From an uncultured Eubacterium sp. (GTDB lineage Bacteria; Bacillota; Clostridia; Oscillospirales; Acutalibacteraceae): DNA of 63,880 bases. Made by a program: the position numbers and the translations under genes. The notes below the pieces were generated by a model. That model saw only the letters and a list, made by a program, of their open reading frames with translations. It was not told the origin of the DNA and did no database searches. Below are positions 14,291-57,356 of this stretch, piece after piece; position 1 is the first letter of the stretch; each line of letters starts with the position of its first letter. The DNA is taken from assembly GCA_905233545.1 (NCBI GenBank), contig CAJOEV010000024.1, positions 1 through 63,880 on the forward strand, written 5' to 3'.

Positions 14291-14329
14291 ATTGCACATT
14301 GGTTTTAATAAGAATAATTGGTGAGTATT

Positions 14330-21048: not shown

Positions 21049-21076
21049 GCGGAATTCAGAATGCGGAATTCGGAAT
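21049..21076 (+). repeat. Heptamer array A (4 units)
   Basis: Four contiguous 7-base units: gcggaat, tcagaat, gcggaat, tcggaat. They begin four bases after the T run of the hpf terminator. Confidence 0.8.
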
Positions 21077-21104
21077 TATCAGGTGCTGCGCACGGTGTTA
21101 TTTT

Positions 21105-21130
21105 GTAGGGGAGGCTCTCCCGAGCCTCCC
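21105..21130 (+). repeat. GTAG-headed REP-like hairpin
   Basis: GTAG (21105-21108) is followed directly by a perfect 9-bp stem gggaggctc/gagcctccc with a TCCC loop. GTAG next to a hairpin is the recognition layout of REP-associated tyrosine transposases; such a gene lies at 57357. Confidence 0.65.
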
Positions 21131-21167
21131 AAATGTTTTTATGTCGCTTTTTGTCGAGAGATAATTC

Positions 21168-21196
21168 TTGACGGATTATTAATATAATGCTACAAT
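21168..21196 (+). promoter_or_regulatory. Strong promoter of a structured RNA
   Basis: TTGACG (21168-21173), 17 bases, TACAAT (21191-21196) with an extended -10 TG at 21188-21189. Confidence 0.65.
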
Positions 21197-21202
21197 TAAG
21201 GA

Positions 21203-21372
21203 GCCAAATAATTAACATTTTAATATTGCTGTATAGGAGTAGTCTGCAATTTGTAAAAAATGCAGGTTCGATAATATCATTCTGCTCTAATACAGCATTG
21301 ATGTTAATTGTTTGGCGACAGTTGAGCTTGCGTTTTTTGTGCGTAGCTTCGGCTGCGCACTTTTTTATTTTT
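21203..21372 (+). ncRNA. Candidate structured RNA or leader with its own terminator
   Basis: Downstream of the promoter, 21203-21218 pairs with 21301-21316 as a 16-bp helix with one G-U. An asymmetric internal loop (8 and 3 bases) leads to a second perfect helix, 21227-21234 with 21290-21297, enclosing about 55 bases. That inner part includes a 5-bp ctgca/tgcag hairpin. A terminator follows: gtgcgtagc, TTCG loop, gctgcgcac (21339-21360), then TTTTTTATTTTT. No open frame of note lies inside. An AGGAG site and TTG codon follow the terminator, so it may be a free RNA or a terminating leader for the small gene at 21386. I do not recognise it as 6S, SRP RNA or a known riboswitch. Confidence 0.6.
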
Positions 21373-21385
21373 AGGAGAATATAAA

Positions 21386-21681
21386 TTGAAATATAAAGAA
21401 AATGAAGTGATTGAAAACATAAAACTGTTATCTGCAAAGCGCTTGAAATTGAAGATGAAGAATTAGTAACAAATGTTAAAGTGAACTGCATATTGGAAGA
21501 GGCGAAACTGATTAAAGAAGGCTTAATCAGAAAAGGCTATTTTGACGATGTTCAAAAATACTACTTGCCGCATATTGCATTAATGCCAAAAGGCTTTTCA
21601 AAAATAATGCTGACAGAATCAGACAGCGAAGCACTGAATAATATGCTGAAGGCTTTTTTGGAATATAAAAAGAACGTATAA
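21386..21681 (+). pseudogene. Small hypothetical gene, probably frameshifted
   Basis: A TTG at 21386 with AGGAG 8 bases upstream opens a frame reading MKYKENEVIENIK, which would stop at 21464. The neighbouring frame continues naturally from about 21425 as TVICKALEIEDEEL, then VNCILEEAKLIKEGLIRKGY, to the stop at 21679-21681. Joined across one frame change the product is about 97 aa, acidic and helical, with no family recognised. The alternative is that only the 66-aa frame from GTG 21481 is translated. It sits directly after the terminator of the structured RNA, suggesting attenuation control if the gene is active. Confidence 0.45.
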
Positions 21682-21710
21682 GGGATTAGCCCCTTATACG
21701 GCATGAATAA

Positions 21711-21929
21711 TTATTTATATGATTTGGGTATATCCGTTAAACCTGCAATATAGTCAATTGAAACATTATAAAGCTTTGCCAGTTTAACAATGAGTTCAAA
21801 TGGCGGTTCACGCTTGCCTTGTTCATAATTTGTATATGTTGTTTTGTGCATTTTTAGTATCTTAACAAGTTCATCCTGAGTTAAATCTTTGTCTTCGCGC
21901 AAATCCCTTAATCGTGGATAGTATTGCAT
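21711..21929 (-). CDS. XRE-family HTH repressor
   Basis: A 72-aa single-domain Cro/CI-type regulator: LRDLREDKDLTQDELVKILKMHKTTYTNYEQGKREPPFELIVKLAKLYNVSIDYIAGLT. The recognition helix lies around HKTTYTNYEQG. The start has GAGGTG upstream on the minus strand. It is transcribed divergently from the secreted-protein genes at 22127 and 22918, and the shared intergenic space holds a perfect 16-bp inverted repeat over a consensus promoter. The likely role is repressor of that promoter, with possible autoregulation. Confidence 0.85.
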   Translation of the reverse strand: MQYYPRLRDLREDKDLTQDELVKILKMHKTTYTNYEQGKREPPFELIVKLAKLYNVSIDYIAGLTDIPKSYK

Positions 21930-21972
21930 AATAACACCTCAGTAATATTATTGCACAATACATCAAACGACA

Positions 21973-22001
21973 TTGACAAAATACAACATATGATGTATAA
22001 T
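21973..22001 (+). promoter_or_regulatory. Perfect consensus promoter for the 22127 gene
   Basis: TTGACA (21973-21978), exactly 17 bases, TATAAT (21996-22001). It is overlapped by the left half of the operator at 21981-22024. A leader of about 120 bases precedes the 22127 start. Confidence 0.8.
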
Positions 22002-22024
22002 AAGACGAACATCATATGTTGTAT
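21981..22024 (+). promoter_or_regulatory. Operator: perfect 16-bp inverted repeat
   Basis: atacaacatatgatgt (21981-21996) is repeated in exact inverted form at 22009-22024, 12 bases apart. The left arm fills the promoter spacer up to the -10; the right arm covers roughly +2 to +17. This arrangement fits repression by the divergent XRE protein. Confidence 0.7.
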
Positions 22025-22126
22025 TTTTTGCAAAAGAGTTTTATCAATTTAAAGACATAGTAAATAATTGGGTATCTTTTTGCAGGAATAAATAAGATGT
22101 ATCTTTATTATTAATGAGGGATTATT

Positions 22127-22855
22127 ATGAAAAAGATTATTAGTTCATTATTATCAATTGTAATGCTTGTAGGCGCACTTTCAGTTAGTTTTAATTCATT
22201 AGCGGCAAGTCCTGTAACATTCACAAACTATTCTATTCTCGAAAGAAATACTAATTATGTAAAAATCAGTTACAGGATTAATAATCCAAACAAAAAGTCG
22301 ATTACAAAAATCCTACATACAATCAGGAAAAAAGGTGATAGTTCAACATTAAAATCCTACAAAAACGATGTTTCTTATAGCAGGAATGTAAATGTTACAA
22401 GAACTATAGGAAGCGGAAAGAATATAAAATATGAATTGCAACCCGGAACAGAGTATGAGATCAAATTTGGTGTCGAAATTAACGGAACCAGGTACTACTC
22501 ATCTTACTATAGTTTTACTACAAAAGCTGAAGAGAATTCTGTAACATTTACAAATTATACTATTCTCGAAAAACAAACAAATTATGTAAAAATCAGTTAC
22601 AGGATTAATAATCCAAATAAAAAGTTGATTACAAAACTCCTGTATACAATAAGAAAAAAAGGTGATAGTTCAACAGTAAAATACTACAAAAAAGATGTTT
22701 CTTATAGCAGAAATGTAAATGTTACAAAAACTATAGGAAGCGGAAAGAATATAAATTATGAATTGCAACCCGGAACAGAGTATGAGATCAAATTTGGTGT
22801 CGAAATTAACGGAACCAGGTACTACTCGTCTTACTATAGTTTTAGAACAAATTGA
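22127..22855 (+). CDS. Secreted protein with two near-identical Fn3-like repeats
   Basis: A 242-aa exported protein. A signal peptide (about 1-27, SIVMLVGALSVSFNSLAA) is followed by two tandem domains of about 105 residues (30-137 and 138-242). Both begin VTFTNY(S/T)ILE and share PGTEYEIKFGVEINGTRYYS, a beta-sandwich pattern like fibronectin type III. The two halves are almost identical at DNA level too, indicating a recent internal duplication. No catalytic residues are evident; a cell-surface or extracellular binding role is a guess. GAGGGATT precedes the ATG. It is followed by a gene with nearly the same signal peptide, probably in one operon under the operator at 21981. Confidence 0.7.
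   Translation: MKKIISSLLSIVMLVGALSVSFNSLAASPVTFTNYSILERNTNYVKISYRINNPNKKSITKILHTIRKKGDSSTLKSYKNDVSYSRNVNVTRTIGSGKNIKYELQPGTEYEIKFGVEINGTRYYSSYYSFTTKAEENSVTFTNYTILEKQTNYVKISYRINNPNKKLITKLLYTIRKKGDSSTVKYYKKDVSYSRNVNVTKTIGSGKNINYELQPGTEYEIKFGVEINGTRYYSSYYSFRTN
22213..22847 (+). repeat. Tandem intragenic duplication of about 325 bp
   Basis: The segment from about 22213 to 22520 recurs from about 22540 to 22847 with few differences. Long stretches match exactly, for example around 22437-22497 and 22758-22818. It encodes the two domains of the 22127 product. Confidence 0.75.
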
Positions 22856-22917
22856 GTTATAATTCCTTATAATACGGCTAATAAATATTTTTAAGTAAAT
22901 AAATTATGGAGATTATT

Positions 22918-23664
22918 ATGAAAAAGATTATTAGTTTATTATTGTCAATCGTTATGCTTGTTAGTGCATTATCAGCAACTGTTAATGCTTTTGCGGCAGG
23001 ATGGGCATCAAACGCAGAGTCAATTAATTTAAATACATGGTACAATGATTATATTGGTTCTCAAGGATATTATGATTCTAATACATGTTATTATGCTAAT
23101 TCATATAAAATGTATTTACCTTCAAAAGGAAAAATTACAATAAGAACTCAAAATGAAAGAACATATTTTTGGTTAGATGAAGTAAAAATATACAAAACCA
23201 GCAATATAGATTCTTCCTTGGACTATTATTCGCGCGATTATGGTTATTCATCCGGAGGCGGTTATTATTGGAATGAGGATACATATAATCTATCCCAAGG
23301 ATACTATTATATTGTTTTGCAAAAAGATTACAATGTGGACTTTGATTTTAAAGTTTCATACAAGCCAATCTTCAGCAGCACTTCATTAACTAAAGTAAGT
23401 GCAAAGGATAATGCTTTTTTTGCAAAATGGAATAAATGCTCAAATATTTCTGGTTATCAATTGCAATACAGTACAAACAGTAATATGAGCAGTTCAAAAA
23501 AAGTAAAAATTGGAAGCAAGTATTCAAGCAAAACTGTTAAATCATTGAAAAACAAGAAAAAATACTATGTTCGAGTACGAACTTACAAAACAGTTAGTGT
23601 TAATGGCGTGAATAAAACATTTTATAGCAAATGGTCAAGCAAAAAAACCGTTAAAACTAAATAA
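22918..23664 (+). CDS. Secreted protein with N-terminal beta domain and C-terminal Fn3-like domain
   Basis: A 248-aa exported protein. The signal peptide MKKIISLLLSIVMLVSALSA is nearly the same as that of the preceding gene. Residues about 30-155 form a Tyr/Ser/Asn-rich region resembling a bacterial pre-peptidase or jelly-roll domain (KMYLPSKGKITIRTQNERTY). Residues about 160-248 form an Fn3-like domain (GYQLQYSTNSNMSSSKKVKI, then KKYYVRVRTYKTV). ATG 22918 was preferred over the ATG 12 bases upstream because GGAG (22908-22911) is then correctly spaced and the N terminus matches its neighbour. Its C-terminal motif is shared with the fragment at 2-55. The role is unknown; it is likely extracellular. 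Confidence 0.68.
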   Translation: MKKIISLLLSIVMLVSALSATVNAFAAGWASNAESINLNTWYNDYIGSQGYYDSNTCYYANSYKMYLPSKGKITIRTQNERTYFWLDEVKIYKTSNIDSSLDYYSRDYGYSSGGGYYWNEDTYNLSQGYYYIVLQKDYNVDFDFKVSYKPIFSSTSLTKVSAKDNAFFAKWNKCSNISGYQLQYSTNSNMSSSKKVKIGSKYSSKTVKSLKNKKKYYVRVRTYKTVSVNGVNKTFYSKWSSKKTVKTK

Positions 23665-23683
23665 TTAAATACAAAAAACACAA

Positions 23684-23722
23684 AAGCTGTCTCGTTTTTA
23701 ATTGTGAGGCAGCTTAGTATTG
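23684..23722 (+). terminator. Terminator after the secreted-protein pair
   Basis: A 10-bp stem aagctgtctc/gaggcagctt (one G-U) around a 12-base loop, followed by a weak T-rich tail. Confidence 0.55.
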
Positions 23723-23843
23723 TTTTATATAATCGAGTTATGTTTTGCTCGGCTAATAATATTAATAAATGAAACATTACAGCTCTTGGAGTGATGTAAG
23801 ATCAATAAAGAAAATATAAAAAACAAAAGAGGAGAGTATTACT

Positions 23844-24710
23844 ATGAAACAATCAAACACAAAAAAACTTTACATTCTGGCAATTGTAGCACTTGTTGCT
23901 GCTGTAATAATCGCAGTTTGCACCTTTGCATTAAGGGGAAACGACAAAACCGCTTCAGAATCCGAACCTGAAACAACCGTTGCTGAGGAAGTCGTTGAAG
24001 ACGAGGAAGAAGCAGAGGAGGAAGAAACAGAATCAATTTCTGAAATTGAAAAAATGATTGTTGGCAGAAAACTTGAAGACTTGGGAGTGAAGTTTGGGAC
24101 ACTTGGCGAGTGTTCACTTTACTTGGAGTTTTCAAGAGGAAATGTCGTTTATAGTTATTCAAATATTGGAGAAGATTTTTCAACTGTAACTAAGTATTCG
24201 CTGTCCGGAGAAACTGTTTCATTTCATGTTGATGAGAATTTATCAGTAGGAAGTTCAGAAAAAGACTATACGCTTTCTTTTTTAAACAATTCCTCAATTA
24301 TTGTTGCAGAATGTAAAAACACATATAATGAAGACGGTAAAGAGAAAACAGAAGAGTATAAAACCTATTTTGCGCCTGAGTTTGAAGAAAAATGGGGAGA
24401 TGGAAGCATATTCAAAGAAATCAGCGATAAGACTTGGATTTCAAAAAACTCCGATTCAGATAATAGCATTGATGCCGAGATGAAAATTTCAGTTAAAGAA
24501 GATGAATACGGGAAACATTTTACCGGAAAAGCAAGAATAAATAATGAATCTTCTGACTTATCCGGAGATGCGTGCGGAAATAATATTGGAACTTTTTATT
24601 GTGGTGATAAAGATTTTATTCTTGAATCTTACAAAGGGAATGTTAACGCATACTTCTACGATATGAACGATGGAACATTTACAAAAGTAGCACTTGAAGA
24701 GAAAAAATAA
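23844..24710 (+). CDS. Membrane-anchored extracytoplasmic protein, paralogue 1
   Basis: A 288-aa protein. A short basic N terminus and one hydrophobic segment (about 9-30, LAIVALVAAVIIAVCTFAL) act as an anchor; there is no clear lipobox. An acidic linker (about 40-65, rich in Glu) leads to two beta-rich segments, the first containing GNVVYSYSN, SLSGETVSFHV and SSIIVAECKNTYNEDGK. The pattern recalls lipocalin-like YxFxxxG modules but I cannot assign a family. The next gene is a paralogue with almost the same first 55 codons. Function unknown; an extracytoplasmic sensor or binding role is a guess. Confidence 0.6.
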   Translation: MKQSNTKKLYILAIVALVAAVIIAVCTFALRGNDKTASESEPETTVAEEVVEDEEEAEEEETESISEIEKMIVGRKLEDLGVKFGTLGECSLYLEFSRGNVVYSYSNIGEDFSTVTKYSLSGETVSFHVDENLSVGSSEKDYTLSFLNNSSIIVAECKNTYNEDGKEKTEEYKTYFAPEFEEKWGDGSIFKEISDKTWISKNSDSDNSIDAEMKISVKEDEYGKHFTGKARINNESSDLSGDACGNNIGTFYCGDKDFILESYKGNVNAYFYDMNDGTFTKVALEEKK

Positions 24711-24738
24711 ATAACTGCTAATATGAAAAGAGGTTAAA

Positions 24739-25611
24739 ATGATGAAACAATCAAACACAAAAAAACTTTACATTCTGGCAATTGTTGCACTTGCAGCAGC
24801 TGTAATTATCGCAGTTTGCACCTTTGCATTCGGCGGTAACGACAAAACTGCTTCCGAACCCGAGCCCGAAACAACTGCTTCTGAGGAAGTTGTTGAAGAT
24901 GAGGAAGAATCAGAGGAAGAAACAGAGCTACAGTCCGAAATTGAAAAAATGCTTGTTGGTAAAACACTTAACGATGTTATAATGAGGTTCGGTACTTACG
25001 GAGAAATGGAACGAGATATAAAAATTTTGGGCGATGGCAGTGCTGAGTATATATACATTAATCAGGTTGAGGAAAACAAATCGTATGCACATTATACCGT
25101 AGAGGGTGATTCAATTATAGTTGATGTTCCTCATTCTTCGCTTGAAGAAGCGGCAAGCACTTTTAAACTATCACTTCTTGATGATTCTTCAATTGTTGTT
25201 GCAGAGTGCAAATGTGAGTATACTGAGGATGGAAAAGACAAAACCGATGAATACAAAACCTATTTTGTACCAATAGACAATGAAGAAAGAGGAACCGAAA
25301 AAATATATGATGAGTTAGCAAACAAAACTTTTGTTTCCAAATACCTTGCCGAAAAAAGCAAGAGTGATGAAGCTCTGATAAAGATTACACTCAATGGAAA
25401 AGGAGAAGAGAAACGCTTTGACGGAAATGTATTGACAAATGAAAGCTCTTCGGAATATTTTGACGGACAAGCATTAGGAAACAATATTGCAACTTTCCGT
25501 GAAGATGACTGTTATTTTATTGTTGAAATTCAAAATGGAAAACCCATTGCATATTTCTACAATCAGAAAGACGATACACTTACAAAAGAGGTACTTAAAG
25601 AAGCTAATTAA
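24739..25611 (+). CDS. Membrane-anchored extracytoplasmic protein, paralogue 2
   Basis: A 290-aa paralogue of the preceding gene. Its anchor and acidic linker (residues 1-65) are nearly identical at DNA level, and the later part is more diverged (SSIVVAECKCEYTEDGKDKTD is shared in pattern). Either of the two adjacent ATG codons (24739, 24742) could be used; AGAGGTT lies upstream. The pair is separated by 28 bases and is probably cotranscribed. A strong terminator follows at 25617. The differing divergence suggests duplication, then sequence change in the exposed domain while the anchor was conserved or gene-converted. Function unknown. Confidence 0.6.
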   Translation: MMKQSNTKKLYILAIVALAAAVIIAVCTFAFGGNDKTASEPEPETTASEEVVEDEEESEEETELQSEIEKMLVGKTLNDVIMRFGTYGEMERDIKILGDGSAEYIYINQVEENKSYAHYTVEGDSIIVDVPHSSLEEAASTFKLSLLDDSSIVVAECKCEYTEDGKDKTDEYKTYFVPIDNEERGTEKIYDELANKTFVSKYLAEKSKSDEALIKITLNGKGEEKRFDGNVLTNESSSEYFDGQALGNNIATFREDDCYFIVEIQNGKPIAYFYNQKDDTLTKEVLKEAN

Positions 25612-25616
25612 CGATG

Positions 25617-25642
25617 AGGGCTGCTGCGGCAGCCCTTTTTTC
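25617..25642 (+). terminator. Terminator after paralogue 2
   Basis: A perfect 8-bp stem agggctgc/gcagccct with a TGCG loop and T6. Its sequence almost equals the hpf terminator at 21021. Confidence 0.9.
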
Positions 25643-25718
25643 AGTTTGGAGAGTGGAGTTCAGGGGTCCGTCCCCTGAGCGATTGGTTTTTCCTGATACC
25701 TAACACCTAAAACCTATT
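25641..25718 (+). repeat. Heptamer element B with central hairpin
   Basis: Left units tcagttt, ggagagt, ggagttc (25641-25661); a 7-bp hairpin tcagggg/cccctga (25660-25678); right units tcctgat, acctaac, acctaaa, acctatt (25691-25718). Confidence 0.65.
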
Positions 25719-25730
25719 TTTTACATTACT

Positions 25731-25746
25731 ATTACAAATTTGTAAT
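25731..25746. promoter_or_regulatory. 16-bp palindrome upstream of trmH
   Basis: attacaaatttgtaat is perfectly self-complementary and lies 8 bases before the proposed -35. It resembles the TACA(N)TGTA sites of winged-helix repressors, but no such regulator is adjacent. Confidence 0.35.
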
Positions 25747-25754
25747 TTGAAAAA

Positions 25755-25783
25755 TTAACTATTGAAATTCAATCCAATATAAT
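25755..25783 (+). promoter_or_regulatory. Promoter of trmH-dprA
   Basis: TTAACT (25755-25760), 17 bases, TATAAT (25778-25783). The leader to the ATG at 25887 is about 95 bases. Confidence 0.5.
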
Positions 25784-25886
25784 GTATATTATTAAAAAAA
25801 TAAATAAAGACAGTCGTGATTTCTTTAAACGAATAAGGGGTTAATTCTTTGAATTAATTCGAAAAAAAGCACGCGCGGAGATGTGT

Positions 25887-26657
25887 ATGGAAAAAATCAC
25901 AAGCAAAAATAATGATATTGTTAAGGACACAAAAAAGCTTATAACCTCATCAAAGGCGAGGGTGCAAAACCGTGCGTTTGTTCTTGAGGGAGCGAGGCTT
26001 TGTTTTGATGTCCTTAATTCTGTTTATACGGTTAAAACGCTTTTCATAACCGAAAAGTTTTTTGAAAAATATCCGCTTGAAATTTCGGCAATGCTTGAAA
26101 GATGTGATGATTCATATCTCATCAGCGAAGAGGTTTCAAAAAAACTCAGCGACACCGAAAATCCCCAGGGAATATTTGCTGTTTGCAGTATGAAGGATGA
26201 AAATGCTTTTTCAAAGTCCGAAAAGATAATTGCGCTTGATAATGTTCAGGATCCTTCAAATGTCGGAGCAATAATCAGAACTGCGGAAGCTCTGGGTATT
26301 GAGAGTATTATTGCATATAACTGCTGTGATATTTACAACCCGAAGGTTTTGCGAGCTTCAATGGGCTCGGTTTTAAGAGAGAATGTTTATATCTGCTCTT
26401 CTCTTGAAGAAACGCTGAAAAGCCTGAAGGGCGAATACATGATTTATTCATCCGTTCCGGACAGCAGTGCAAAGAGAATAACTGATATTGATTTTTCAAA
26501 ACCGTCAATCTGCGTTATCGGCAACGAAGCAAATGGCGTTGAAGAGAATATCAAGGCGCTTTCCGATAAGCTCATAACAATCCCGATGCTTGGCAATGCA
26601 GAGAGTCTTAATGCGTCTGCGGCAGCTTCAATTATTATGTGGGAGATGCTCAGATGA
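25887..26657 (+). CDS. TrmH/SpoU-family RNA 2'-O-methyltransferase
   Basis: A 256-aa protein. The N-terminal substrate-binding domain (about 1-100, with SSKARVQNRAFVLEGARL) is joined to a knotted SpoU methyltransferase domain (about 105-256). The three SpoU motifs are visible: NVQDPSNVGAIIRTAEALG, ASMGSVLRE with VIGNEANGV, and SLNASAAASIIMWEML. The family uses S-adenosylmethionine to methylate the ribose of rRNA or tRNA; the target here is unknown. ATG 25887 is preferred over 25881 because GGAG (25877-25880) would abut the earlier codon. Its stop overlaps the dprA start by four bases. Confidence 0.85.
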   Translation: MEKITSKNNDIVKDTKKLITSSKARVQNRAFVLEGARLCFDVLNSVYTVKTLFITEKFFEKYPLEISAMLERCDDSYLISEEVSKKLSDTENPQGIFAVCSMKDENAFSKSEKIIALDNVQDPSNVGAIIRTAEALGIESIIAYNCCDIYNPKVLRASMGSVLRENVYICSSLEETLKSLKGEYMIYSSVPDSSAKRITDIDFSKPSICVIGNEANGVEENIKALSDKLITIPMLGNAESLNASAAASIIMWEMLR

Positions 26658-27853: not shown

Positions 27854-27871
27854 CCGAAAGGATTAAAACAT

Positions 27872-29926: not shown

Positions 29927-29944
29927 GATAATTAAGTTTAAGAT

Positions 29945-32223: not shown

Positions 32224-32224
32224 T

Positions 32225-33876: not shown

Positions 33877-33883
33877 TGTACAT

Positions 33884-37410: not shown

Positions 37411-37430
37411 AATCCAAATGGATTTTATTC
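37405..37430 (+). terminator. Hairpin over the smc stop codon
   Basis: A perfect 11-bp stem gaataaaatcc/ggattttattc with an AAAT loop begins inside the last smc codons. There is no T run, so it may serve mRNA stability more than termination. Confidence 0.4.
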
Positions 37431-37431
37431 A

Positions 37432-37480
37432 GTGAAGAGTGAAAAGTGAAGAGTTAAGAATTTCGGGCAGGCATTGCCCA
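37432..37480 (+). repeat. Heptamer element C
   Basis: Four units gtgaaga, gtgaaaa, gtgaaga, gttaaga (37432-37459), then atttcgg and a small hairpin gggca/tgccc (37465-37479). It lies between smc and ftsY, immediately after the hairpin at 37405. Confidence 0.75.
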
Positions 37481-37506
37481 CACCCGATTATAAAGGAGAA
37501 AGAGTT

Positions 37507-38475: not shown

Positions 38476-38558
38476 CAGTGCATAGCGCATAGTTAATAAA
38501 AATCGGAGCGAAGCGACCCGAAAACTCGGAACTCGGGGCTCGGAACTCAGGACTGTTC
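38476..38558 (+). repeat. Heptamer element D with central hairpin module
   Basis: Left units cagtgca, tagcgca, tagttaa (38476-38496); the module tcggagcgaagcgacccga (38503-38521), which is the reverse complement of the module in elements E and F; right units actcgga, actcggg, gctcgga, actcagg, actgttc (38524-38558). Confidence 0.8.
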
Positions 38559-38571
38559 ACGGAGTGAATTT

Positions 38572-40757: not shown

Positions 40758-40774
40758 TCAGCGGGTTTTGTACA

Positions 40775-40802
40775 CACCTAAAACCTAAAACCTAACACCA
40801 GG
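40775..40802 (+). repeat. Heptamer array H
   Basis: Units acaccta, aaaccta, aaaccta and acaccag lie between yqeK and rsfS. The last unit runs into the ribosome site AGGAG of rsfS. The sequence matches the right arm of element B (acctaac, acctaaa). Confidence 0.75.
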
Positions 40803-40811
40803 AGAATAAAT

Positions 40812-41174
40812 ATGGAAAACTATAAAGATATTGTTGAAATCGCAGTTAAGGCAATAGACAGCAAAAGAGGATTTGATATTGATGTTATCAAAGTAACCGA
40901 TTTAACTGTTTTAACGGATTATTTCGTTATTGCAAGCGTAAGCTCAAACACTCAGTTAAAGGCAATTGCCGATGAGGTTGAATATAAGCTCAGCGAGGCG
41001 GGATATGAGCCCCACCATATCGAAGGCAAAGCTTCCGACTGGATTTGCCTTGATTATATCGGCGTTGTTATTCATATTCTGTTTAAGGAGCAGAGAGGAT
41101 TTTATCAGATTGAACGCCTCTGGAATGACGGAGAGAGCGTTGATATAAGTGAATTTATTGTTAAAGAAAATTAA
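40812..41174 (+). CDS. rsfS: Ribosome silencing factor RsfS
   Basis: A 120-aa protein of the Iojap/RsfS family. Motifs: DIDVIKVTDLTVLTDYFVIA, SNTQLKAIADEVE, HHIEGKASDWICLDYIGVVI and FYQIERLWNDGE. It binds L14 (uL14) on the 50S subunit and blocks subunit joining in slow growth. The ATG has AGGAG at the end of the heptamer array upstream. Confidence 0.95.
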   Translation: MENYKDIVEIAVKAIDSKRGFDIDVIKVTDLTVLTDYFVIASVSSNTQLKAIADEVEYKLSEAGYEPHHIEGKASDWICLDYIGVVIHILFKEQRGFYQIERLWNDGESVDISEFIVKEN

Positions 41175-41294
41175 TAAGTTAAGAGTTAAGAATTAAGAGT
41201 TAAGAGTGTCGGGTCGCTTTGCTCCGATTTATAATTGGGTGTGGGCAATGCCCACCATAAATTCTTCACTTTTCATTTTTCACTCTTCACTTAA
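41174..41294 (+). repeat. Heptamer element E, the most complete copy
   Basis: Left arm of five units (ataagtt, aagagtt, aagaatt, aagagtt, aagagtg; 41174-41208); module tcgggtcgctttgctccga (41209-41227); hairpin gtgggc/gcccac (41241-41255); right arm of five units (aattctt, cactttt, cattttt, cactctt, cacttaa; 41260-41294). The arms are roughly inverted relative to each other. Confidence 0.85.
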
Positions 41295-41312
41295 TAACCG
41301 GAGGTTATTTAT

Positions 41313-43681: not shown

Positions 43682-43684
43682 AAA

Positions 43685-43713
43685 TTGCCCCGCACGAGCG
43701 GGGCGATTTTTTT
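43685..43713 (+). terminator. leuS terminator
   Basis: A perfect 7-bp GC-rich stem gccccgc/gcggggc (43687-43704) with an ACGA loop, then TTTTTTT. Confidence 0.9.
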
Positions 43714-43714
43714 A

Positions 43715-43926
43715 ATGAAGAATGAAAAATGAAGAGTGAAGAATTTCGGGTCGCTTCGCTCCGATTGTATTCGTAATGCGTTTCGGCGAACAACCGTAGG
43801 GCGCGCCCCCCCTGGACGCGCCGTTGTAATAACACTCCCGATACAATAACGAAAAATGAAACGAATGCAAATTATTCGGCGCATTTCCGCGACCCGAAAT
43901 TCTCAATTCTTAAATCTTAAATCTTA
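43715..43926 (+). repeat. Heptamer element F carrying an internal REP hairpin
   Basis: Left units atgaaga, atgaaaa, atgaaga, gtgaaga (43715-43742); module tcgggtcgcttcgctccga (43746-43764); a GTAG-headed hairpin (43796-43822); a partial inverted module near 43888-43898 (cgcgacccgaa); right units attctca, attctta, aatctta, aatctta (43899-43926). It follows the leuS terminator directly. Confidence 0.8.
43796..43822 (+). repeat. GTAG-headed REP-like hairpin
   Basis: GTAG (43796-43799) borders a ggcgcg/cgcgcc stem with an 11-base loop, inside element F. Confidence 0.6.
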
Positions 43927-43997
43927 ATTTTATAGAAACACACGGAGGCGTTGTTTCTTTATTTTTTTGACTTGTTAAAAATTTACAAAAAAAGGTG

Positions 43998-44026
43998 TTG
44001 ACTTATTGTTTTTCATAGTTTATAAT
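43998..44026 (+). promoter_or_regulatory. rpoBC promoter
   Basis: TTGACT (43998-44003), 17 bases, TATAAT (44021-44026). A leader of about 130 bases follows, with a ctgcc/ggcag hairpin at 44053-44067; I see no recognisable riboswitch in it. No rplJL genes precede rpoB here. Confidence 0.75.
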
Positions 44027-44162
44027 GCTTATCACCATTAAAATGGAGTTATCTGCCTTATAGGCAGTTTGACGGTATTTTTCGGTCACAAATTATTTAC
44101 ATTTTTTGCCCCGAAAAACCGCTTCAACTCTTGATTTTTAGGCGAATTTTTAAGGAAACGGA

Positions 44163-47100
44163 GTGAATACCTTTATGGTGAATGTGAAGGATGTTAAGCT
44201 CGGAACAACAACGCGCAAAAGCTTTGCGAAAATCAATGAGGTTATGCAGATGCCTAATCTTATTGAAGTTCAGAAGAAATCATATCAGTGGTTTCTTGAC
44301 GAAGGCTTGAAAGAGGTTTTCCGTGATATCGGCTCAATTACCGACTACACAGGAAATCTTATTCTCGATTTCATTGATTATTCAATGGATGATGAGCCCA
44401 AGTATTCTATTGCTCAGTGTAAGGCGCGTGACGTTACTTATGCAAAACCTCTGAAGGTAAGAGCAAGACTTCAGAATAAGGAAACAGGCGAGGTTAAGGA
44501 AAACACAATCTACATGGGCGATTTTCCGCTTATGACGGATGCAGGAACATTCGTTATCAACGGTGCCGAAAGATGTATTGTATCTCAGCTCGTCAGGTCT
44601 CCGGGCGTTTACTATCATATGGAGCATGATAAGACAGGTAAGGAATTATACACCAACACTGTTATTCCCAACCGCGGTGCATGGCTTGAATATGAAACAG
44701 ACGCAAACGATTTATTCTATGTAAGAATAGATAAAAACAGAAAAATATATATAACAACTTTCCTTCGGTCACTCGGTCTTTCAAGTGATGCCGATATAAG
44801 AGAATTCTTCGGCGACGATGAAAGAATCGAAGCAACGATTGAAAAGGATACAACAAAGAATCAGGAAGAAGCGCTTCTTGAAGTATATAAGAAGCTTCGT
44901 CCGGGCGAGCCTCCGACACTTGAAACAGCTCAGGCTCATCTTGACGCTCTCTTCTTTGATGCTCACCGCTACGACCTTTCAAGAGTCGGCAGATATAAGT
45001 ACAACAAAAAGCTCGGCATGGTTGACAGACTTAACGGTCAGGTTCTTTCTCAGCCTGTTATTTCGCCTCAGGGTGAGCTCCTTGCAGACGCAGGAGAAAA
45101 GATTGACGCTGCAAAGGCTGCCGAGATTGAAAATGCAGGCGTTATGTTTGCATATGTTAAGCTTGAGAGCGGAAAAGAAATCAAAATCGTTTCAAACGGT
45201 ATGGTTGACTTTGAAGCATTCTGCCCCGATATCGACAAGAAGGCTTTCGGTATCAACGAAAAGGTTTCATTCAGAGTTTTAAATGAAATTCTTGAAAAAT
45301 GCGGCGACGATAAGGACGCTCTTGAAGAAGAACTCAGAATCAAGCACGACGACCTTATTCCCAATCATATTATTGTTGACGATATTTTCGCAACAGTATC
45401 CTATCTTATTAATGTTGCAAACGGCGTTGGTTCAACAGATGATATCGACCATCTCGGAAACCGCCGTATCCGTGCAGTCGGCGAACTTCTTCAGAATCAG
45501 TTCAGAATCGGCTTTACAAGAATGGAAAGAGGTATTCGTGAAAGAATGACTCTTCAGGCACAGGACGACGAGGAATCAATCACTCCTCAGGCACTTATCA
45601 ACATCCGTCCCGTATTTGCCGCAATCCGTGAGTTCTTCGGTTCATCTCCGCTTTCACAGTTCATGGACCAGAACAACCCGCTTGCAGAATTAACTCACAA
45701 GAGACGTCTTTCGGCTCTCGGTCCCGGCGGACTTTCAAGAGACCGTGCAGGCTTCGAGGTTCGTGACGTTCACTATACTCACTACGGAAGAATGTGTCCC
45801 ATCGAGACTCCCGAAGGTCCCAACATCGGACTTATCTCCTACCTTGCATGCTATTCAAGACTTAACGAGTACGGCTTCATTGAGGCTCCCTACCGTAAGA
45901 TTGACAAGGAAACAGGCGTTGTAACCGATGAGGTTGTTTATATGACAGCCGATATGGAGGACGAATTTGTTGTTGCTCAGGCAAACGAGCCCCTCGATGA
46001 AAACGGAAGATTCGCAAACAACAGAGTAACCTGCCGCTACAGAGATGAGTTCTTAACTCTTCCTCCCGACAGAGTTGACTATATGGACGTTTCTCCGAAG
46101 ATGGTTGTATCAGTTGCAACCGCAATGATTCCGTTCCTTGAAAACGACGACGCAAACCGTGCTCTTATGGGTGCTAACATGCAGCGTCAGGCTGTACCGC
46201 TTCTTAAGACTGAGGCTCCCGTTGTCGGAACAGGTATGGAATACAAGGCTGCATACGACTCGGGCGTTGTTGTTCCCGCTAAGAGAGGCGGAACAGTTGT
46301 TGCCCTTGATGCAGACACAATTGAAATCAAAACCAAGTCAGGCGAAATAGATAAGTATAATCTTATCAAGTTCGCAGGCTCAAACCAGGGAACATGCATT
46401 AACCAGAGACCGATTGTTTCACTTCATCAGGAAATTGAGGACGGACAGGTTATTGCAGACGGTCCCGCAACCCACGGCGGTGAAATTTCACTCGGTAAGA
46501 ATGCTCTTATCGGATTTATGACCTGGGAAGGTTATAACTATGAGGACGCTGTTCTTATCAATGAAAAGATAGTTCGTGATGATGTATACACATCAATTCA
46601 CATTATTGAACACGACCAGGAAGCAAGAGATACCAAGCTCGGTCCCGAAGAAATAACAAGGGATATCCCCAATGTCGGTGAGGATGCTCTTAAAGACCTT
46701 GATGAAGACGGAATTATCCGTATCGGCGCAGAGGTTAAGAGCGGCGACATCCTTGTCGGTAAGGTAACACCCAAGGGTGAAACAGAGCTTACAAGTGAGG
46801 AAAGACTTCTCCGCGCGATCTTCGGTGAGAAGGCAAGGGAAGTAAGAGATACCTCTCTCAAGGTACCCCACGGTGAATACGGTATCGTTGTTGACGTTAA
46901 GGTGTTCACAAGAGCTAACTCCGATGAGCTCAACCCGGGCGTAAACAAGGTTGTCCGCGTTTATATCGCTCAGAAGAGAAAGATTCAGGCAGGCGACAAG
47001 ATGGCTGGTCGTCACGGAAACAAGGGTGTTGTTTCAAGAGTTCTTCCCCAGGAAGATATGCCCTTCCTTCCCGATGGCAGACCGCTTGATATCGTTCTTA

Positions 47101-47963
47101 ATCCTCTCGGTGTACCTTCTCGTATGAACATCGGTCAGGTGCTTGAAGTTCATCTCGGCTATGCTGCAAAGGCTCTCGGCTGGAAGATGATGACTCCCGT
47201 ATTCGACGGCGCTCACGAGGAAGATATCCGCGAATGCTTAAAGGCTGCCGACATCGGATACTATGTTGATGAAAACGGAAACAAGGTCTACGACGGTAAG
47301 ACAAAGCTTATCGACGGAAGAACGGGTGAGCCTTTTGATAACCGTATAACAGTAGGTTATATGTATTACCTTAAGCTCCATCACCTTGTTGACGATAAGA
47401 TGCACGCACGTTCAACAGGACCTTACAGTCTTGTTACCCAGCAGCCTCTCGGCGGTAAAGCGCAGTTCGGCGGACAGCGTTTCGGTGAGATGGAGGTTTG
47501 GGCGCTTGAAGCATACGGCGCTGCATACACTCTTCAGGAAATCATAACTGTTAAGTCGGATGATGTTGTCGGAAGAGTTAACACCTATGAATCAATTGTC
47601 AAGGGCGAGAATATTCCTCCCGCAGGAACTCCCGAGGCATTCAAGGTTCTTTACAAAGAGTTCCAGGCTCTCGGACTCGACACCACTCTCTTTGACAGAA
47701 ACGGTGAAGAGGTTGAGATTAAGCAGGATCTCGATGACGACGGAATTCAGCCGCTTCCGGCTGATGACGAAGCTTTCCAGACGGTTAACGATGTTGAAGG
47801 CTCAGAGGGCTGGGGCGTTGTTAATCCCGATGAAGAGCAAGAGGAAGCAGATCAAGGCAGTGCAGATTTATTTGCAAGCTTTGCAGATGCACTTGCAAGT
47901 GCAGAGGACGATGATTACATCGGCGATCTCGGTTTTGCAAGCGATGAAGATGACGAGTTTTAA
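44163..47963 (+). CDS. rpoB: RNA polymerase beta subunit
   Basis: A 1266-aa beta subunit, intact throughout. Landmarks include the rifampicin region ([20 protein letters not shown], then [13 protein letters not shown]), the active-site block [27 protein letters not shown], and [17 protein letters not shown]. An acidic C-terminal tail of about 60 residues follows the last conserved block. The GTG at 44163 has AAGGA 6 bases upstream; an alternative ATG lies at 44175. It is cotranscribed with rpoC. Confidence 0.98.
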
Positions 47964-48027
47964 CTCTCAGCTGCTTTGAAAACTTACCTAATTATATACA
48001 TTATATAGAAAAGGAGTGCTTCCATTT

Positions 48028-51000
48028 ATGAATACTAATTCAACAAATGATTTCAGTTCAATCAGAATCGGACTTGCATCACCTGAACGTATCCGCGAAT
48101 GGTCATACGGCGAGGTAACAAAGCCCGAAACTATAAACTACAGAACACTTAAACCCGAGCGCGACGGACTTTTCTGCGAAAAGATTTTCGGTCCCATGAA
48201 GGACTGGGAATGCCACTGCGGAAAGTATAAAAGAGTTCGCTACAAGGGTAAGGTTTGTGAGCGCTGCGGAGTTGAAATCACCCGCGCTAAGGTGCGCCGC
48301 GAACGTATGGGACATATTGAGCTTGCTGCTCCCGTATCACACATCTGGTACTTCAAGGGAATTCCCAGCAGACTCGGTCTTGTTCTTGACATCAGCCCGA
48401 GATATCTTGAAAAGGTTCTCTATTTTGCGCTTTACATCGTAACAGACCCAGGCGATACTCCGCTTGAGAAAATGCAGATTCTCAACGAAAAAGAGTATGC
48501 TGAAATGCGCGAGAGATATGAGGACGACTTCGAGGCAGGAATGGGTGCAGAAGCTATCAAAAAGCTTCTTCAGGACATTGATATTGTTGCTCTTCGTGAT
48601 GAGCTCACTGCTGAGCTTGAGGGCGCAACTGGTCAGAAGAGAGTTAAGCTTCTCAAGAGACTTGACGTTGTTGACGCTTTCTACAACAGCGGAAACAAGC
48701 TCGAGTGGATGATTCTCGATGTTATCCCCGTTATTCCTCCCGATATCCGTCCCATGGTTCAGCTCGACGGCGGACGTTTTGCAACGAGCGACCTTAACGA
48801 CCTTTACAGAAGAGTTATCAACAGAAATAACAGACTTAAGAGACTTATTGAGCTCAACGCTCCCGATATTATCGTAAGAAACGAAAAGAGAATGCTTCAG
48901 GAATCTGTTGACGCCCTTATCGATAACGGCAGACGCGGACGCCCTGTTACAGGACCTAACAACCGTCCTCTCAAATCTCTTTCGGATATGCTTAAAGGTA
49001 AGCAGGGACGTTTCCGTCAGAACCTTCTCGGAAAGCGTGTTGACTACTCAGGACGTTCGGTTATCGTTGTCGGTCCCGAACTCAAGATGTATCAGTGCGG
49101 TCTTCCCAAGGAGATGGCAATTGAGCTCTTCAAGCCCTTCATTATGAAGCGTCTTGTTGAAATCGGCAAAGCTTCAAACATCAAATCTGCAAGAAAGATG
49201 GTTGAAAAGGCTGAAAAGGCTGAAGTATGGGATGCTCTTGAAGTTGTAATCAAGGACCACCCCGTAATGCTCAACCGTGCTCCCACGCTTCACAGACTCG
49301 GTATTCAGGCATTCGAGCCCGTTCTCGTAGAGGGAAGAGCAATAAAGCTTCATCCCCTTGCTTGTACCGCATTTAACGCCGACTTCGACGGTGACCAGAT
49401 GGCTGTTCACGTTCCTCTTTCAGCAGAGGCTCAGGCAGAGGCAAGAATGCTCATGCTTGCTGCAAACAACCTTCTTAAGCCCTCGGACGGTAAGCCCGTT
49501 GCTGTTCCCACTCAGGATATGGTTATCGGTTCCTACTACTTAACAATGGTTAAGGATGGTGAGCCCGGTGCTCCCAGAGTTGAAACAATAAACGGCGAAG
49601 AAATAACTAAATATAATGTTTACCGCGACAAGGATGAGGCTATGATGGCATTCCAGGAAGGCTCACTCGGTCTTCACAGCGAGTGCTTAATCCGCTTCTC
49701 AAAGGAAGTTGACGGTGAAGTTAAATCAAAGCTTGTTAAAACAACAATCGGAAGAGTTATCTTCAATAACCCCGTTCCTCAGGATTTGGGATTTGTTGAC
49801 AGAACAAACCCCGAAAGCGAATTCGACCTTGAAATCGATTTCGTTGTCAAGAAGGGCGGACTCGGTAAGATTGTTGATAAGTGCATAAGAAAGCACGGCG
49901 TTTCAATCGCATCAAAGATGCTTGATGAGCTTAAGGCTCAGGGTTATAAGTATTCAACAATTTCGGGAACAACCGTTGCCGTTATCGATGCTCTCATCCC
50001 CGATAAGAAGAAGGGATATCTCGAAGAAGCAGAGGCAAAGGTTGACGAAATCACAATGCACTATAACTTCGGTGAAATCACCAACGAAGAGCGCAGCGAG
50101 GCTGTTATCAAGGCTTGGGAGGTTTGCACAAACAAGGTATCCGACGAGCTTACAAATAACTTCGACGGAACTCATAACCCGATTCATATGATGGTTGACT
50201 CAGGAGCCCGTGGTTCTATTTCACAGCTTCGTCAGCTTGCAGGTATGAGAGGACTTATTGCAAACACCTCGGGTAAAACAATCGAGGTTCCCATCAGAGC
50301 TAACTACCGTGAAGGTCTTAATATTCTTGAATACTTCATTTCTTCGCGTGGTGCGCGTAAGGGATTAACCGATACCGCGCTTCGTACAGCTGACTCGGGT
50401 TACTTAACCCGCCGTCTTGTTGATGTTTCTCAGGATGTTATCATCCGTGATAACGACTGCGGATGCCACGACGGTATTGAGGTTTACGCTATTATGGACG
50501 GTAAGCGTGTTCTTGAAAGCGTTGAAGAAAGACTTGTCGGAAGATATGTTGTTGACCCCGTTGTTCATCCTGAAACAGGCGAAGTTCTTATGGACACCGA
50601 CAGAATTATGACCGAAGAGGATGCTCAGCGCATTGTTGATGCAGGCATAACTTCAGTTAAAATTCGTTCACTTATCACATGTAAGTCAAGAAACGGCGTT
50701 TGCTGCAAGTGCTACGGTTCAAACCTTGCATTCAACGAGCCCGTTCAGGTTGGTGAAGCAGTCGGAACAATCGCTGCTCAGTCAATCGGTGAACCGGGTA
50801 CACAGCTTACAATGCGTACCTTCCACACCGGCGGTGTTGCAGGCGGTGAAGACATCACACAGGGTCTTCCCAGAGTCGAAGAGCTCTTTGAGGCAAGAAA
50901 GCCCAAGCAGCTTGCAATCCTCTCTGAAATCGAAGGTGATATGCGTTTCGAGGAAATCAAGAAGTCACGCCATGTTGTTGTTTATAATTCTGAAACCGCA

Positions 51001-51678
51001 GAGGAAAAGAAATATCTCATTCCTTACGGCGCAAGACTTCATGAGAATATTGTTGACGGCGCACACATCGAAAAGGGTCAGGAACTCACAGTGGGTGCAA
51101 AGAACCCCCACGACGTTCTTGCAATTCTCGGTAAAGAAGCTGTTTATAACTATCTTATCAAAGAAGTTCAGTTTGCATACCGTACCCAGGGTGTTGATAT
51201 CAACGATAAGCACATTGAGGTTATCGTTCGTCAGATGCTCAAGAAGTGCACTGTTGACGATGCAGGAAGCACCGACCTTATCTCGGGAACAATGGTTGAT
51301 GTTTCTGAGGTTGACGCTGCAAACGATAAGGTTGAAGCAAGAATCAATGCAGGCGAAGATGGACTTACCTTTGCAACCTACATTCCGATTCTTATGGGTA
51401 TCACCAAAGCTTCCCTTGCAACCGATTCGTTCCTGTCAGCGGCTTCCTTCCAGGAAACAACCCGTGTTCTTACAGACGCTGCAATCAAAGGAAAGAGCGA
51501 TAAGCTTCTCGGTCTTAAGGAGAACGTTCTTATCGGTAAGCTCATTCCTGCAGGAACAGGTATGGAAGTTTTCAAGGATGTTGATATTGTTCCGAGTTAT
51601 TTCAGCGCTGAAGGCTCGGAGGAAATCCTCAATCTTGAACAGCTTCAGGAGCTTTTAACAAATAGTATGTCAGAATAA
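48028..51678 (+). CDS. rpoC: RNA polymerase beta' subunit
   Basis: A 1216-aa beta' subunit. The N-terminal zinc site is [20 protein letters not shown], the catalytic Mg loop [12 protein letters not shown], and the second zinc site spans CGCHDG to VCCKCYG. The trigger-loop region [18 protein letters not shown] is present. ATG 48028 is preferred over the in-frame GTG at 48016, which overlaps the AAGGAG ribosome site itself. Confidence 0.97.
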
Positions 51679-51686
51679 TAATTTTC

Positions 51687-51716
51687 TTGACAAATGCAGG
51701 TTCAGGGTGATATAAT
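51687..51716 (+). promoter_or_regulatory. rpsL: Promoter of rpsL
   Basis: TTGACA (51687-51692), 18 bases, TATAAT (51711-51716). The leader of about 300 bases to rpsL contains the hairpin at 51782 and repeat element G. Confidence 0.65.
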
Positions 51717-51781
51717 ACTAACTTGCTACAGTACGAATTTCGTTATTCTGCATAAAATTTAAATATCTGATTTGTACAAAT

Positions 51782-51816
51782 CGCTGATGGAGTGCACTTC
51801 GGTGCACTCCGCAGCG
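51782..51816 (+). terminator. UUCG hairpin in the rpsL leader
   Basis: A 9-bp perfect stem ggagtgcac/gtgcactcc with a TTCG loop (51789-51810), closed outside by cgctg/cagcg. No T run follows, so it may be an RNA structure in the leader and not a full terminator. Confidence 0.45.
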
Positions 51817-51989
51817 TGCGTATACAAAGCCTCTTTGACGCTTTTGCAGTGAAGAATGAAAAGTGAAAAGTGAAGAGTTACGGGTGCTGTGCACGGCGAT
51901 TATAAAACGGGTGCGGGTGTCCCGCCATAAACTTTTAACTCTTAACTCTTTATTCTTAACTGCCTCAAAGATGTTTTGTATGCGCATGC
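51814..51989 (+). repeat. Heptamer element G nested in 27-bp terminal inverted repeats
   Basis: Outer arms 51814-51840 and 51963-51989 are inverted copies (22 of 27 positions match). Inside are left units agtgaag, aatgaaa, agtgaaa, agtgaag (51848-51875), a gcggg/cccgc hairpin (51913-51925), and right units aactttt, aactctt, aactctt, tattctt (51930-51957). The 176-bp whole looks like a small MITE. Confidence 0.7.
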
Positions 51990-57149: not shown

Positions 57150-57355
57150 TGAATGATAAATTAATTCTGAAAAATAACCTTAAAGAAGTTCGAACTGCTC
57201 ACGGTTTTTCACAGCAAGCCCTTGCCAATATGGTCGGAGTTTCAAGAAATACAATAAGCTCTATCGAAACACTTCAATATTGTCCAACCGCAAAGCTCGC
57301 CCTCGTTATCTGCATAGCTCTTGATATTAAATTCGAGGATATGTTTTATTTTTGA
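57149..57355 (+). CDS. XRE-family HTH regulator
   Basis: A 68-aa Cro/CI-type regulator: LKEVRTAHGFSQQALANMVGVSRNTISSIETLQY, with the recognition helix in SRNTISSIE, ending KLALVICIALDIKFEDMFYF. It overlaps the DUF6442-like gene stop by one base. By context it should bind the gacaagtatacttgtc palindrome and autoregulate the operon. The REP transposase gene begins one base after its stop. Confidence 0.88.
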   Translation: MNDKLILKNNLKEVRTAHGFSQQALANMVGVSRNTISSIETLQYCPTAKLALVICIALDIKFEDMFYF

Positions 57356-57356
57356 T

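Follow-up and report, generated by a model that had tools for sequence, protein, structure and literature searches.

Seven-base intergenic arrays as the ends of a dispersed hairpin element in an uncultured Eubacterium sp.

Why do the spacers in the genome of one gut-type bacterium carry tandem arrays whose units differ from place to place, while the unit length stays at seven bases? The question is raised by contig CAJOEV010000024.1 of an uncultured Eubacterium sp., which was analyzed over its entire length of 63,880 bases (the window) and belongs to a 2.23-Mb draft genome (G000; other genomes are likewise given by number). Rather than standing alone as microsatellites, the arrays form the ends of a dispersed element of about 85-130 bp. 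Their heptamers share the skeleton RARYKNN (R, purine; Y, pyrimidine; K, G or T; N, any base) and point to small hairpins of a few types.

Seven-base arrays and their RARYKNN skeleton

The initial annotation of the window had listed eight loci with an exact 7-base period, and a period-7 array was detected at all eight, with scores of 8-18. The numbers of dinucleotide shuffles (500 per locus) that matched the observed score were 0, 1, 0, 4, 0, 0, 0 and 0, and periods 4-6 and 8-12 scored 6 or less everywhere. The weakest loci were 25641, with an array detected at 25698-25716, and 38476, with one at 38523-38543. Abundance was examined in a sample consisting of the window and the first 20 kb of 20 contigs (463,880 bases, about a quarter of the genome), 37,585 bases of which were intergenic according to a simple open reading frame (ORF) caller. 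This intergenic DNA contained 34 period-7 arrays with a score of at least 12, against 0.05 in shuffles, and 0-2 arrays for each of the periods 4-6 and 8-13; periods 14 and 21 were harmonics. An excess over shuffled intergenic DNA is therefore present in the sampled quarter of the genome, and the claim that units differ among loci at a fixed period was confirmed, seven being almost exclusive. A larger sample of 577,880 bases gave 67 arrays (score at least 10, at least 20 nt), or 11.6 per 100 kb. Ten of the 57 arrays in the score-10 listing lay mostly inside predicted ORFs; several of these ORFs are probably spurious, to judge from the window, where the arrays at 21052, 43714, 51850 and 51930 overlap such predictions.

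The arrays belong to a two-armed plan: an array of about 31 nt, a core of 48-69 nt (mostly 51-63) with two small hairpins, and an inverted array. All 21 array pairs spaced 40-75 nt apart were inverted rather than direct (pairs in the duplicated stretch of locus L084 were left out), so that half-units meet as in REPINs (repetitive extragenic palindromic doublets forming hairpins) and in the terminal inverted repeats of miniature inverted-repeat transposable elements. Among 118 arrays with a score of at least 11, a length of at least 22 nt and 40 nt on each side, the favored length was 31-32 nt (41 arrays), i.e., four units plus three or four bases, followed by 24-25 nt (18 arrays) and other classes of up to 53 nt; about 4.4 heptamers are typical. 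The cores combine two hairpins around an AT-rich spacer, and the types are mixed within one element: H1 GGGTCGCTTCGCTCC, H2 GGTTACTCGCNNNGCTC (beginning with TTACTCGCNNNGCTC), H3 GGTGCTGCGCAC, H4 GTGGGCNNNGCCCAC and H5 GGCGGGNNNCCCGC. Halves with a single hairpin also occur alone, as at 37431 in the window and in many H2 copies.

Of the five window loci that were said to have arrays on both sides of a hairpin, three were clear (41177/41261, 43714/43898 and 51848/51930); at the other two (25641 and 38476) we read one good and one weak arm. The module reported as shared between loci, tcgggtcgcttcgctccga, has 12 exact copies in the genome and none in the backward control. The statement that some arrays start beside a hairpin was also borne out: for the 34 arrays with a recognizable inner side, a hairpin lay at most 12 nt outside in 10, compared with 144 of 1580 control positions (p = 0.0008), and within 75 nt outside the rates were alike (11/34 and 466/1580). 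When folded as single-stranded DNA (ssDNA) and compared with shuffles, the two-armed elements at 41170 and 51842 reached z scores of -3.0 and -3.8, and in the former the arms pair with about one mismatch per heptamer. No significant co-variation between arms was found in 22 purine-selected pairs (identity p 0.13, energy p 0.54).

To avoid selection by the repeat itself, the unit was analyzed from the hairpin outward. The H2 set comprised hairpins from fetched regions of six genomes, with at least 45 nt upstream and duplicates removed: 20 of 23 matches in G051, 19 of 20 in G033, 17 of 17 in G057, 10 of 12 in G038, 16 distinct ones of 17 fetched in G002 (19 matches in total) and, for G000, 13 loci of 24 matches to a looser pattern. 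Among these 95 hairpins, 54 had a period-7 array (score at least 8) in the upstream 48 nt, 42 at a stricter score, and none had periods 4-6 or 8-12. A template-free alignment of the 54 arms gave about 0.6, 1.1, 0.8, 0.9, 0.9, 0.1 and 0.1 bits for the successive unit positions, i.e., the consensus R A R Y K N N with five constrained and two free positions. Furthermore, 50 of the 54 arms stood at one of two neighboring offsets to the hairpin (within 1-2 nt). The skeleton recurred at the four further hairpin types (sets deduplicated within one type only), where 31 of 42, 14 of 28, 21 of 23 and 13 of 15 hairpins carried period-7 arms and none showed another tested period; the offset was tight for H3 and H5 and took mainly one or two values for H1.

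The free positions use 14 of the 16 possible dinucleotides. Between distinct consensus units the two N positions mismatch at rates of 0.76 and 0.74, like random letters, and within arrays at 0.32 and 0.09. RARYK arms exceeded the 99% shuffle null at 68 of the 95 H2 hairpins, including 23 of the 41 without detectable period 7, which means that the skeleton outlives repeat identity. Judged from these alignments, RARYK acts like a constrained motif and NN like neutral sequence whose letters stay alike within one array. Arrays of the TAGGTKT type, found beside GTAGGGG palindromes, fit the skeleton only in part and may be another class, and the telomere likeness of TTAGGTG and TTTTAGG units is considered a coincidence.

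Several elements end in a similar module, TTTCGACYGAARGGAGAAA, right before a start codon (L081, L083, L084, L085, L089 and L091). In these places the repeat may supply a ribosome-binding site.

Dispersal, turnover and distribution

We aligned 35 paired elements (85-129 nt), each with 100-nt flanks, against each other. Of the 386 alignments, 79 extend into the flanks; in the other 307, the ends are concentrated at the outer edge of the array on either side, and 139 of these have both ends no more than 8 nt from the edges. The arrays are therefore the termini of the dispersed unit.

Sites shared between genomes, compared in every case between species and not between strains of one species, reveal how the elements change. 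Gene names in what follows (rsfS, leuS, rdgB, nadD, yqeK, rpoB and rpoC) are our assumptions from reading translations, and the SMC and SRP54-type GTPase genes were assigned by family search. In the spacer between the presumed rdgB and the next gene, G038 and G051 have an element, whereas G000, G033 and G005 lack one. In the spacer between the SMC and SRP54-type genes, hairpin and flanks are common to G000, G038 and G051, and the units are AGTGAAG, AATTAAG and AATTACG, respectively. At site C (G000/G038) one arm of the same element is longer by one unit (7 bp), and at site B (G038/G051) the difference is 14 bp. On the other hand, L286 and L224 (G002/G051) differ by a single base within the array. 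At site D (G000/G051), the same pair of hairpin types is inverted between flanks that the two genomes share. At sites A and E the replacement, by eye at the same border within a few nucleotides, affects the type of hairpin as well as the units. Taken as old conserved regulatory sequences, the sites thus give a mixed picture: some are common to several species, while units and hairpin types turn over.

Around the presumed rsfS, unit similarity (of 7) was 4.96 among the junctions of one genome, compared with 3.99 for shuffled units; between genomes it was 4.30 at the same junction and 4.28 at different junctions. By these figures, unit change is concerted at the genome level, with exceptions.

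Relatives collected with one protein, the presumed RsfS, were metagenome-assembled genomes labeled Eubacterium sp., Oscillospiraceae, Eubacteriales or uncultured Clostridia, several of them from ruminant samples, and also Eubacterium coprostanoligenes ATCC 51222. The H2 core pattern occurs in 18 of 80 genomes of one genus, G000 included, with a backward control of 0 throughout. Matches number 23 in G051, 20 in G033, 19 in G002, 17 in G057, 12 in G038 and 12 in G000, and at least four were found in G000, G002, G006, G009, G033, G038, G049, G051, G057, G063 and G071. Among 300 genomes of the family (G000 counted), a draw with only four genus members besides G000, a related pattern had 24 matches in G000 and one in one other genome. 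Period-7 arrays numbered 34 in 104,793 bases of six array-positive genus members and 1 in 257,665 bases of fourteen other members. In 20 genomes of other genera of the family, no period-7 array (score 11) was found outside ORFs in 308,422 sampled bases, 32,560 of them intergenic; periods 6, 8 and 10 gave one array each. By this sampling, the elements are limited to a part of the genus.

The elements of the window are listed in Table 1. Two further observations concern its coding regions: a 242-aa ORF at 22127-22855 contains a 327-bp tandem duplication (92% matches), and 14318-20257 encodes a large non-ribosomal peptide synthetase, for which the best NCBIfam model is aureusimine synthetase AusA (1023 bits, cut-off 2500).

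Table 1. Arrays, hairpins and tagged palindromes in the window.
Feature	Position	Strand	Basis or remark
Array, units AATGCGG/AATTCAG/AATTCGG	21049..21079	+	Detected core 21052-21077; followed by ggtgctgcgcac hairpin half-core
GTAG-tagged palindrome gtaggggaggctctcccgagcctccc beside half-element; separate REP-like family	21105..21130	+	Sequence; GTAG class of repetitive extragenic palindromic (REP) sequences in the available text of PMC3733652
Weak array agtttggagagtggagttcag, hairpin gggtccgtcccc, array ACCTAACACCTAAAACCTA at 25698-25716	25643..25716	.	Period scoring
Single arm, AGTGAAG units, between SMC and SRP54-type GTPase (probably ftsY) genes	37431..37461	+	Period scoring; family search
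Half-core hairpin ttcgggcaggcattgcccacacccgattataa, same half-element as 37431 arm	37462..37493	+	G038, G051, G002: same position, similar hairpin, other units
Weak left arm gtgcatagcgcatagtt	38478..38494	+	Sequence
Hairpin module H1 TCGGGTCGCTTCGCTCCGA	38503..38521	-	12 exact genome copies
Arm, AACTCGG units (toward hairpin: CGAGTTC type)	38523..38554	-	Period scoring
Array, ACCTAAA units, before presumed rsfS	40776..40799	-	Period scoring
Left arm, 31 nt, AGTTAAG units; two-armed element between presumed rsfS and leuS	41177..41207	+	Period scoring
Core: two hairpins (H1-type tcgggtcgctttgctccga, and gtgggcaatgcccac) flanking AT-rich spacer	41208..41260	.	Sequence, fold
Right arm, inverted, TCTTCAC units; about one mismatch per heptamer with left arm	41261..41291	-	Fold
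Left arm, AATGAAG units	43714..43744	+	Period scoring
Hairpin module H1	43746..43764	+	Exact module match
GTAG-tagged palindrome gtagggcgcgccccccctggacgcgcc inside core of 43714 element	43796..43822	+	Sequence
Right arm, AATTCTT units	43898..43929	-	Period scoring
Left arm, AGTGAAG/AATGAAA units, spacer after presumed rpoC	51848..51879	+	Period scoring
Core: ggtgctgtgcac hairpin, AT spacer, gcgggtgtcccgc hairpin	51880..51929	.	Sequence, fold
Right arm, inverted, AACTCTT units	51930..51961	-	Period scoring

A REPIN-like reading and its alternatives

The reading that we prefer, with a probability of roughly 0.55, is that a non-autonomous, REPIN-like family of dispersed elements has these arrays as its terminal arms, the heptamers forming a 7-bp contact lattice and slippage homogenizing the free letters. 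The half-element typically consists of some 4.4 tandem RARYKNN heptamers that point to a small hairpin and keep phase with it. The unit of about 85-130 bp has two such halves, often of different hairpin types, head to head around an AT-rich spacer and can fold as a long stem bearing two hairpins; single halves persist as remnants or simple copies. Each RARYK would be one contact of a factor that recognizes the ends in seven-base steps; this could be a set of small DNA-binding subunits arranged as a lattice, or a transposase that makes several contacts along one strand. Contact in seven-base steps is the simplest reading, and the omega protein of plasmid pSM19035 provides an example of a seven-base lattice in the available text of PMC9499535. 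NN would go unread and so drift, while whole-unit slippage and exchange among copies would keep it uniform within an array and partly shared genome-wide. The factor would move or exchange halves, with some preference for sites beside existing hairpins.

A number of observations weigh against this reading. The one-armed copy at 37425 folds less clearly (z -2.1) and 38476 at chance level (z -0.2), and arms of one element do not match each other significantly better than arms of different elements in the same genome (p about 0.10). The 386 alignments count pairs in both directions and include a few orthologous ones (at least site D), and array similarity itself helps to place alignment ends at these edges. 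Borders read by eye showed no consistent target-site duplication, and no filled/empty pair with exact borders was established. Mobility is deduced from dispersal and from presence or absence between species. The phase to the hairpin is looser for H4. Inside arrays, too, variation is highest at the first N (0.32), so that within-array uniformity is mainly that of the second N. The NN mismatch rates were obtained with the phase fitted by a RARYK template (three shifts), in contrast to the template-free bit alignment, and both analyses used arrays preselected for period 7. At 41 of the 95 H2 hairpins no array was detected, and 18 of these lack the skeleton too; by reading, some of the skeleton-less hairpins have the array replaced by another repeat. 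As for the factor, a protein search with RAYT-A, a REP-associated tyrosine transposase (RAYT), found no match in array-rich G038 and G033, although in G033, which is 87% complete, a RAYT gene may have been missed. The ribbon-helix-helix (RHH) family RHH_1 (PF01402) was not detected at E <= 0.01 in array-rich G002, G033, G051 and G049; other RHH families were not searched.

A bolder reading, which we consider unlikely, gives the free letters a function. The arms would be a recognition array of a new kind, where an undescribed factor of these bacteria reads DNA or ssDNA in strict steps of seven through RARYK, and NN would be a rewritable, array-specific two-letter label at the element's ends that decides which halves pair, exchange or move together.

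The best placed of the rival explanations, although also improbable, is an origin as ordinary microsatellites, in which polymerase slippage favoring 7-nt steps both makes and homogenizes the spacer heptamers. Units are indeed alike within arrays, and sites C and B differ between species by 7 and 14 bp. The available parts of PMC4679880 and PMC4692102 report an excess of heptanucleotide simple sequence repeats in many bacteria and a proposal that the polymerase makes a 7-nt contact. However, slippage would have to contend with the link of the arrays to five hairpin types and their inverted arrangement around a core, with a five-position skeleton common to 14 NN types, with the favored length of 31-32 nt, and with the lack of arrays at score 11 in the intergenic DNA sampled from other genera. 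The persistence of the skeleton where no periodicity is detectable indicates a constraint beyond the repeat.

We are doubtful about a host site for protein binding or segregation, where small RHH dimers would polymerize on heptads for nucleoid organization or regulation and the site would not serve its own spread. The omega system provides the precedent: each dimer occupies one 7-bp WATCACW, and at least four contiguous heptads are required for full activity (PMC9499535, in the text at hand), which resembles the constraint on five of seven positions and the typical 4.4 repeats described here. The candidate binder RHH_1 is not supported, as the Pfam family does not track the arrays; besides the absences given above, the single match in G000 was under the Pfam cut-off. 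Moreover, presence varies between close species at the same spacer, and paired hairpins, inverted arms and dispersed whole copies look mobile.

Still less probable is an element acting as RNA, transcribed in operon spacers, with arms and hairpins that set mRNA processing, stability or translation coupling. Such a role resembles that suggested for cyanobacterial short tandemly repeated repetitive sequences (STRRs) in the available text of PMC2670836, and would suit arms that pair in the ssDNA fold and a position between co-directional genes, as in 38 of 46 array-bearing gaps. Yet co-directional gaps are not significantly favored (38 of 190, against 4 of 36 divergent gaps; p = 0.25), the element of site D has opposite orientations in two genomes although its flanks are the same, many copies consist of one half only, and several relatives have no element at the same spacer. 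Rfam gave no match above gathering scores in the window or in L229, L219, L277 and L292.

True REPINs moved by the RAYT transposases of the genome are very unlikely. In their favor are eight RAYT-type Y1 matches in G000 to the RAYT-A query (one an opposite-strand overlap), one gene at G000:C21:4117-4614 that is flanked by an array and inverted words, and GTAG-tagged palindromes beside and inside some elements. However, a GTAG tag (within 8 nt or inside) occurs at 1 of 95 H2 hairpins and at none of the 79 array-preceded H1, H3, H4 and H5 hairpins. CGTC is absent from both sets, and CTAC occurs at 16 H2 hairpins, 15 of them read as a loop variant. RAYT-A, not found in array-rich G038 and G033, is present in two genomes without a match to the H2 pattern, G030 and G031. 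Flanks were examined for 27 of the 30 RAYT-A loci; arrays lie on both sides of one of them, and at another (L160) there is an array about 100 nt upstream. A longer Y1 type was found with PF01797 in G038, G051, G002 and G049, and not in G033 or G000. A RAYT as driver was therefore rejected, its presence not following the arrays in either search, and among the families searched, which were Y1 types only, no candidate for a mover or an autonomous relative tracks them.

The Y1 genes themselves show several features. The RAYT-type gene of the window (57321-57848; NF047646 61.8 bits, cut-off 80; PF01797 20.8 bits, cut-off 23) contains, in its own frame and read in frame, two inverted copies of a GTAG-tagged palindrome (57466-57494 and 57632-57660), and its paralogue G000:C21:4117-4614 carries peptide segments that match them. 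Directly before this paralogue (L111, 4117-4649) lies a TAGGTTT/TAGGTGT array, and a terminator-like hairpin and then inverted words CCTAACACCTAAAACC follow it. The second Y1 type (about 235-290 aa; L112-L117) is found near GGGGAC-type palindromes and resembles the tyrosine transposases flanked by terminal inverted repeats in PMC3733652, the available part of which mentions GGGGWSAS motifs. In G057 (L253-L269), palindromes of the GTAGGG type follow closely on several H2 halves, as if this other repeat inserted at H2.

Least credible is the proposal of the initial annotation, a mechanism copying by sevens, if taken as a telomerase-like enzyme that adds or copies DNA in seven-base steps and writes new units. 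The evidence supports copying by sevens only in part: units do differ wholesale at shared sites with the period constant, the same junction is no more alike across genomes than different junctions, and whole-unit changes of 7 and 14 bp are visible, but such changes explain array uniformity and not the skeleton or the favored length, some wholesale changes are swaps of whole halves including the hairpin (sites A and E), L286/L224 is nearly unchanged, and the arrays are element termini whose anchored units keep RARYK in hairpin phase.

Relation to known repeats

The open-licence literature yielded no account of arms with the RARYKNN pattern, nor of repeats with heptamer arms from these bacteria. 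According to the part of PMC4692102 at hand, the over-representation of seven-base repeats in the spacers of bacteria was noted in 2007 or earlier, and a link to polymerase slippage was suggested. The likeness to cyanobacterial STRRs that the initial annotation saw is fair as regards the period. Like the TAACTGA repeats of Beggiatoaceae, STRRs are seven-base tandem units in spacers with no assigned function (PMC4679880 and PMC2670836, available parts), and one STRR able to form a hairpin is described in PMC2670836. These systems use one or a few fixed units (three in Calothrix, cited in the accessible part of PMC4692102), whereas in the present family one skeleton carries many units (14 NN types), and the arrays are linked to hairpins and lie in inverted orientation on either side of a core. 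The GGGAATC and GGGGA(T/C)T heptamers of Xanthomonas and Nostoc are likewise intergenic and vary in length and sequence between related strains at the same gene pairs (PMC4692102, same part), but are G-rich, quadruplex-type units of one kind.

Geobacter metallireducens has multicopy elements of four (GGACCGG) or five (MTYCTGA) tandem heptanucleotides, which the accessible text of PMC2700814 calls putative global regulatory elements or sites. Rotated to GAMTYCT, the second unit fits RARYKNN in part, which could arise by chance. Each family there has a fixed consensus, and the description in that text mentions neither a phased hairpin nor NN variation. The parS sites of pSM19035 share with our arrays the contiguous 7-bp units, bound there by one ParB/omega dimer per heptad with at least four needed for full activity (PMC9499535, as above), but they are plasmid partition sites with WATCACW instead of RARYKNN and no mobile hairpin core.

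A strict partial pattern, in phase with a hairpin and in the context of a mobile element, makes the question "why seven?" testable as the question of what contacts RARYK every seven bases. Comparison of close species also shows how the repeat ends of the family turn over in a compact bacterial genome: units are gained and lost, halves are swapped and elements are inverted.

The closest likeness in architecture is to the REP sequences and REPINs that occur with RAYTs in Pseudomonas and enterobacteria. According to the available text of PMC3116915, these are dispersed and intergenic, consist of two inverted hairpin half-units around a spacer, and also occur as singlets and tandem clusters. A cluster is seen here in G002:C87 (41773-42172, L281), where four tandem H2 hairpins stand at 127-bp spacing, as if the whole element were repeated. 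The present elements differ in having arms built from about 4.4 degenerate heptamers, in which the skeleton is fixed and NN varies freely, hairpins without the GTAG tag, and several hairpin types per element, and no RAYT was found that tracks them. With a shared architecture but neither the tag nor a cognate transposase found, the family is therefore described as a REPIN-like variant rather than a member.

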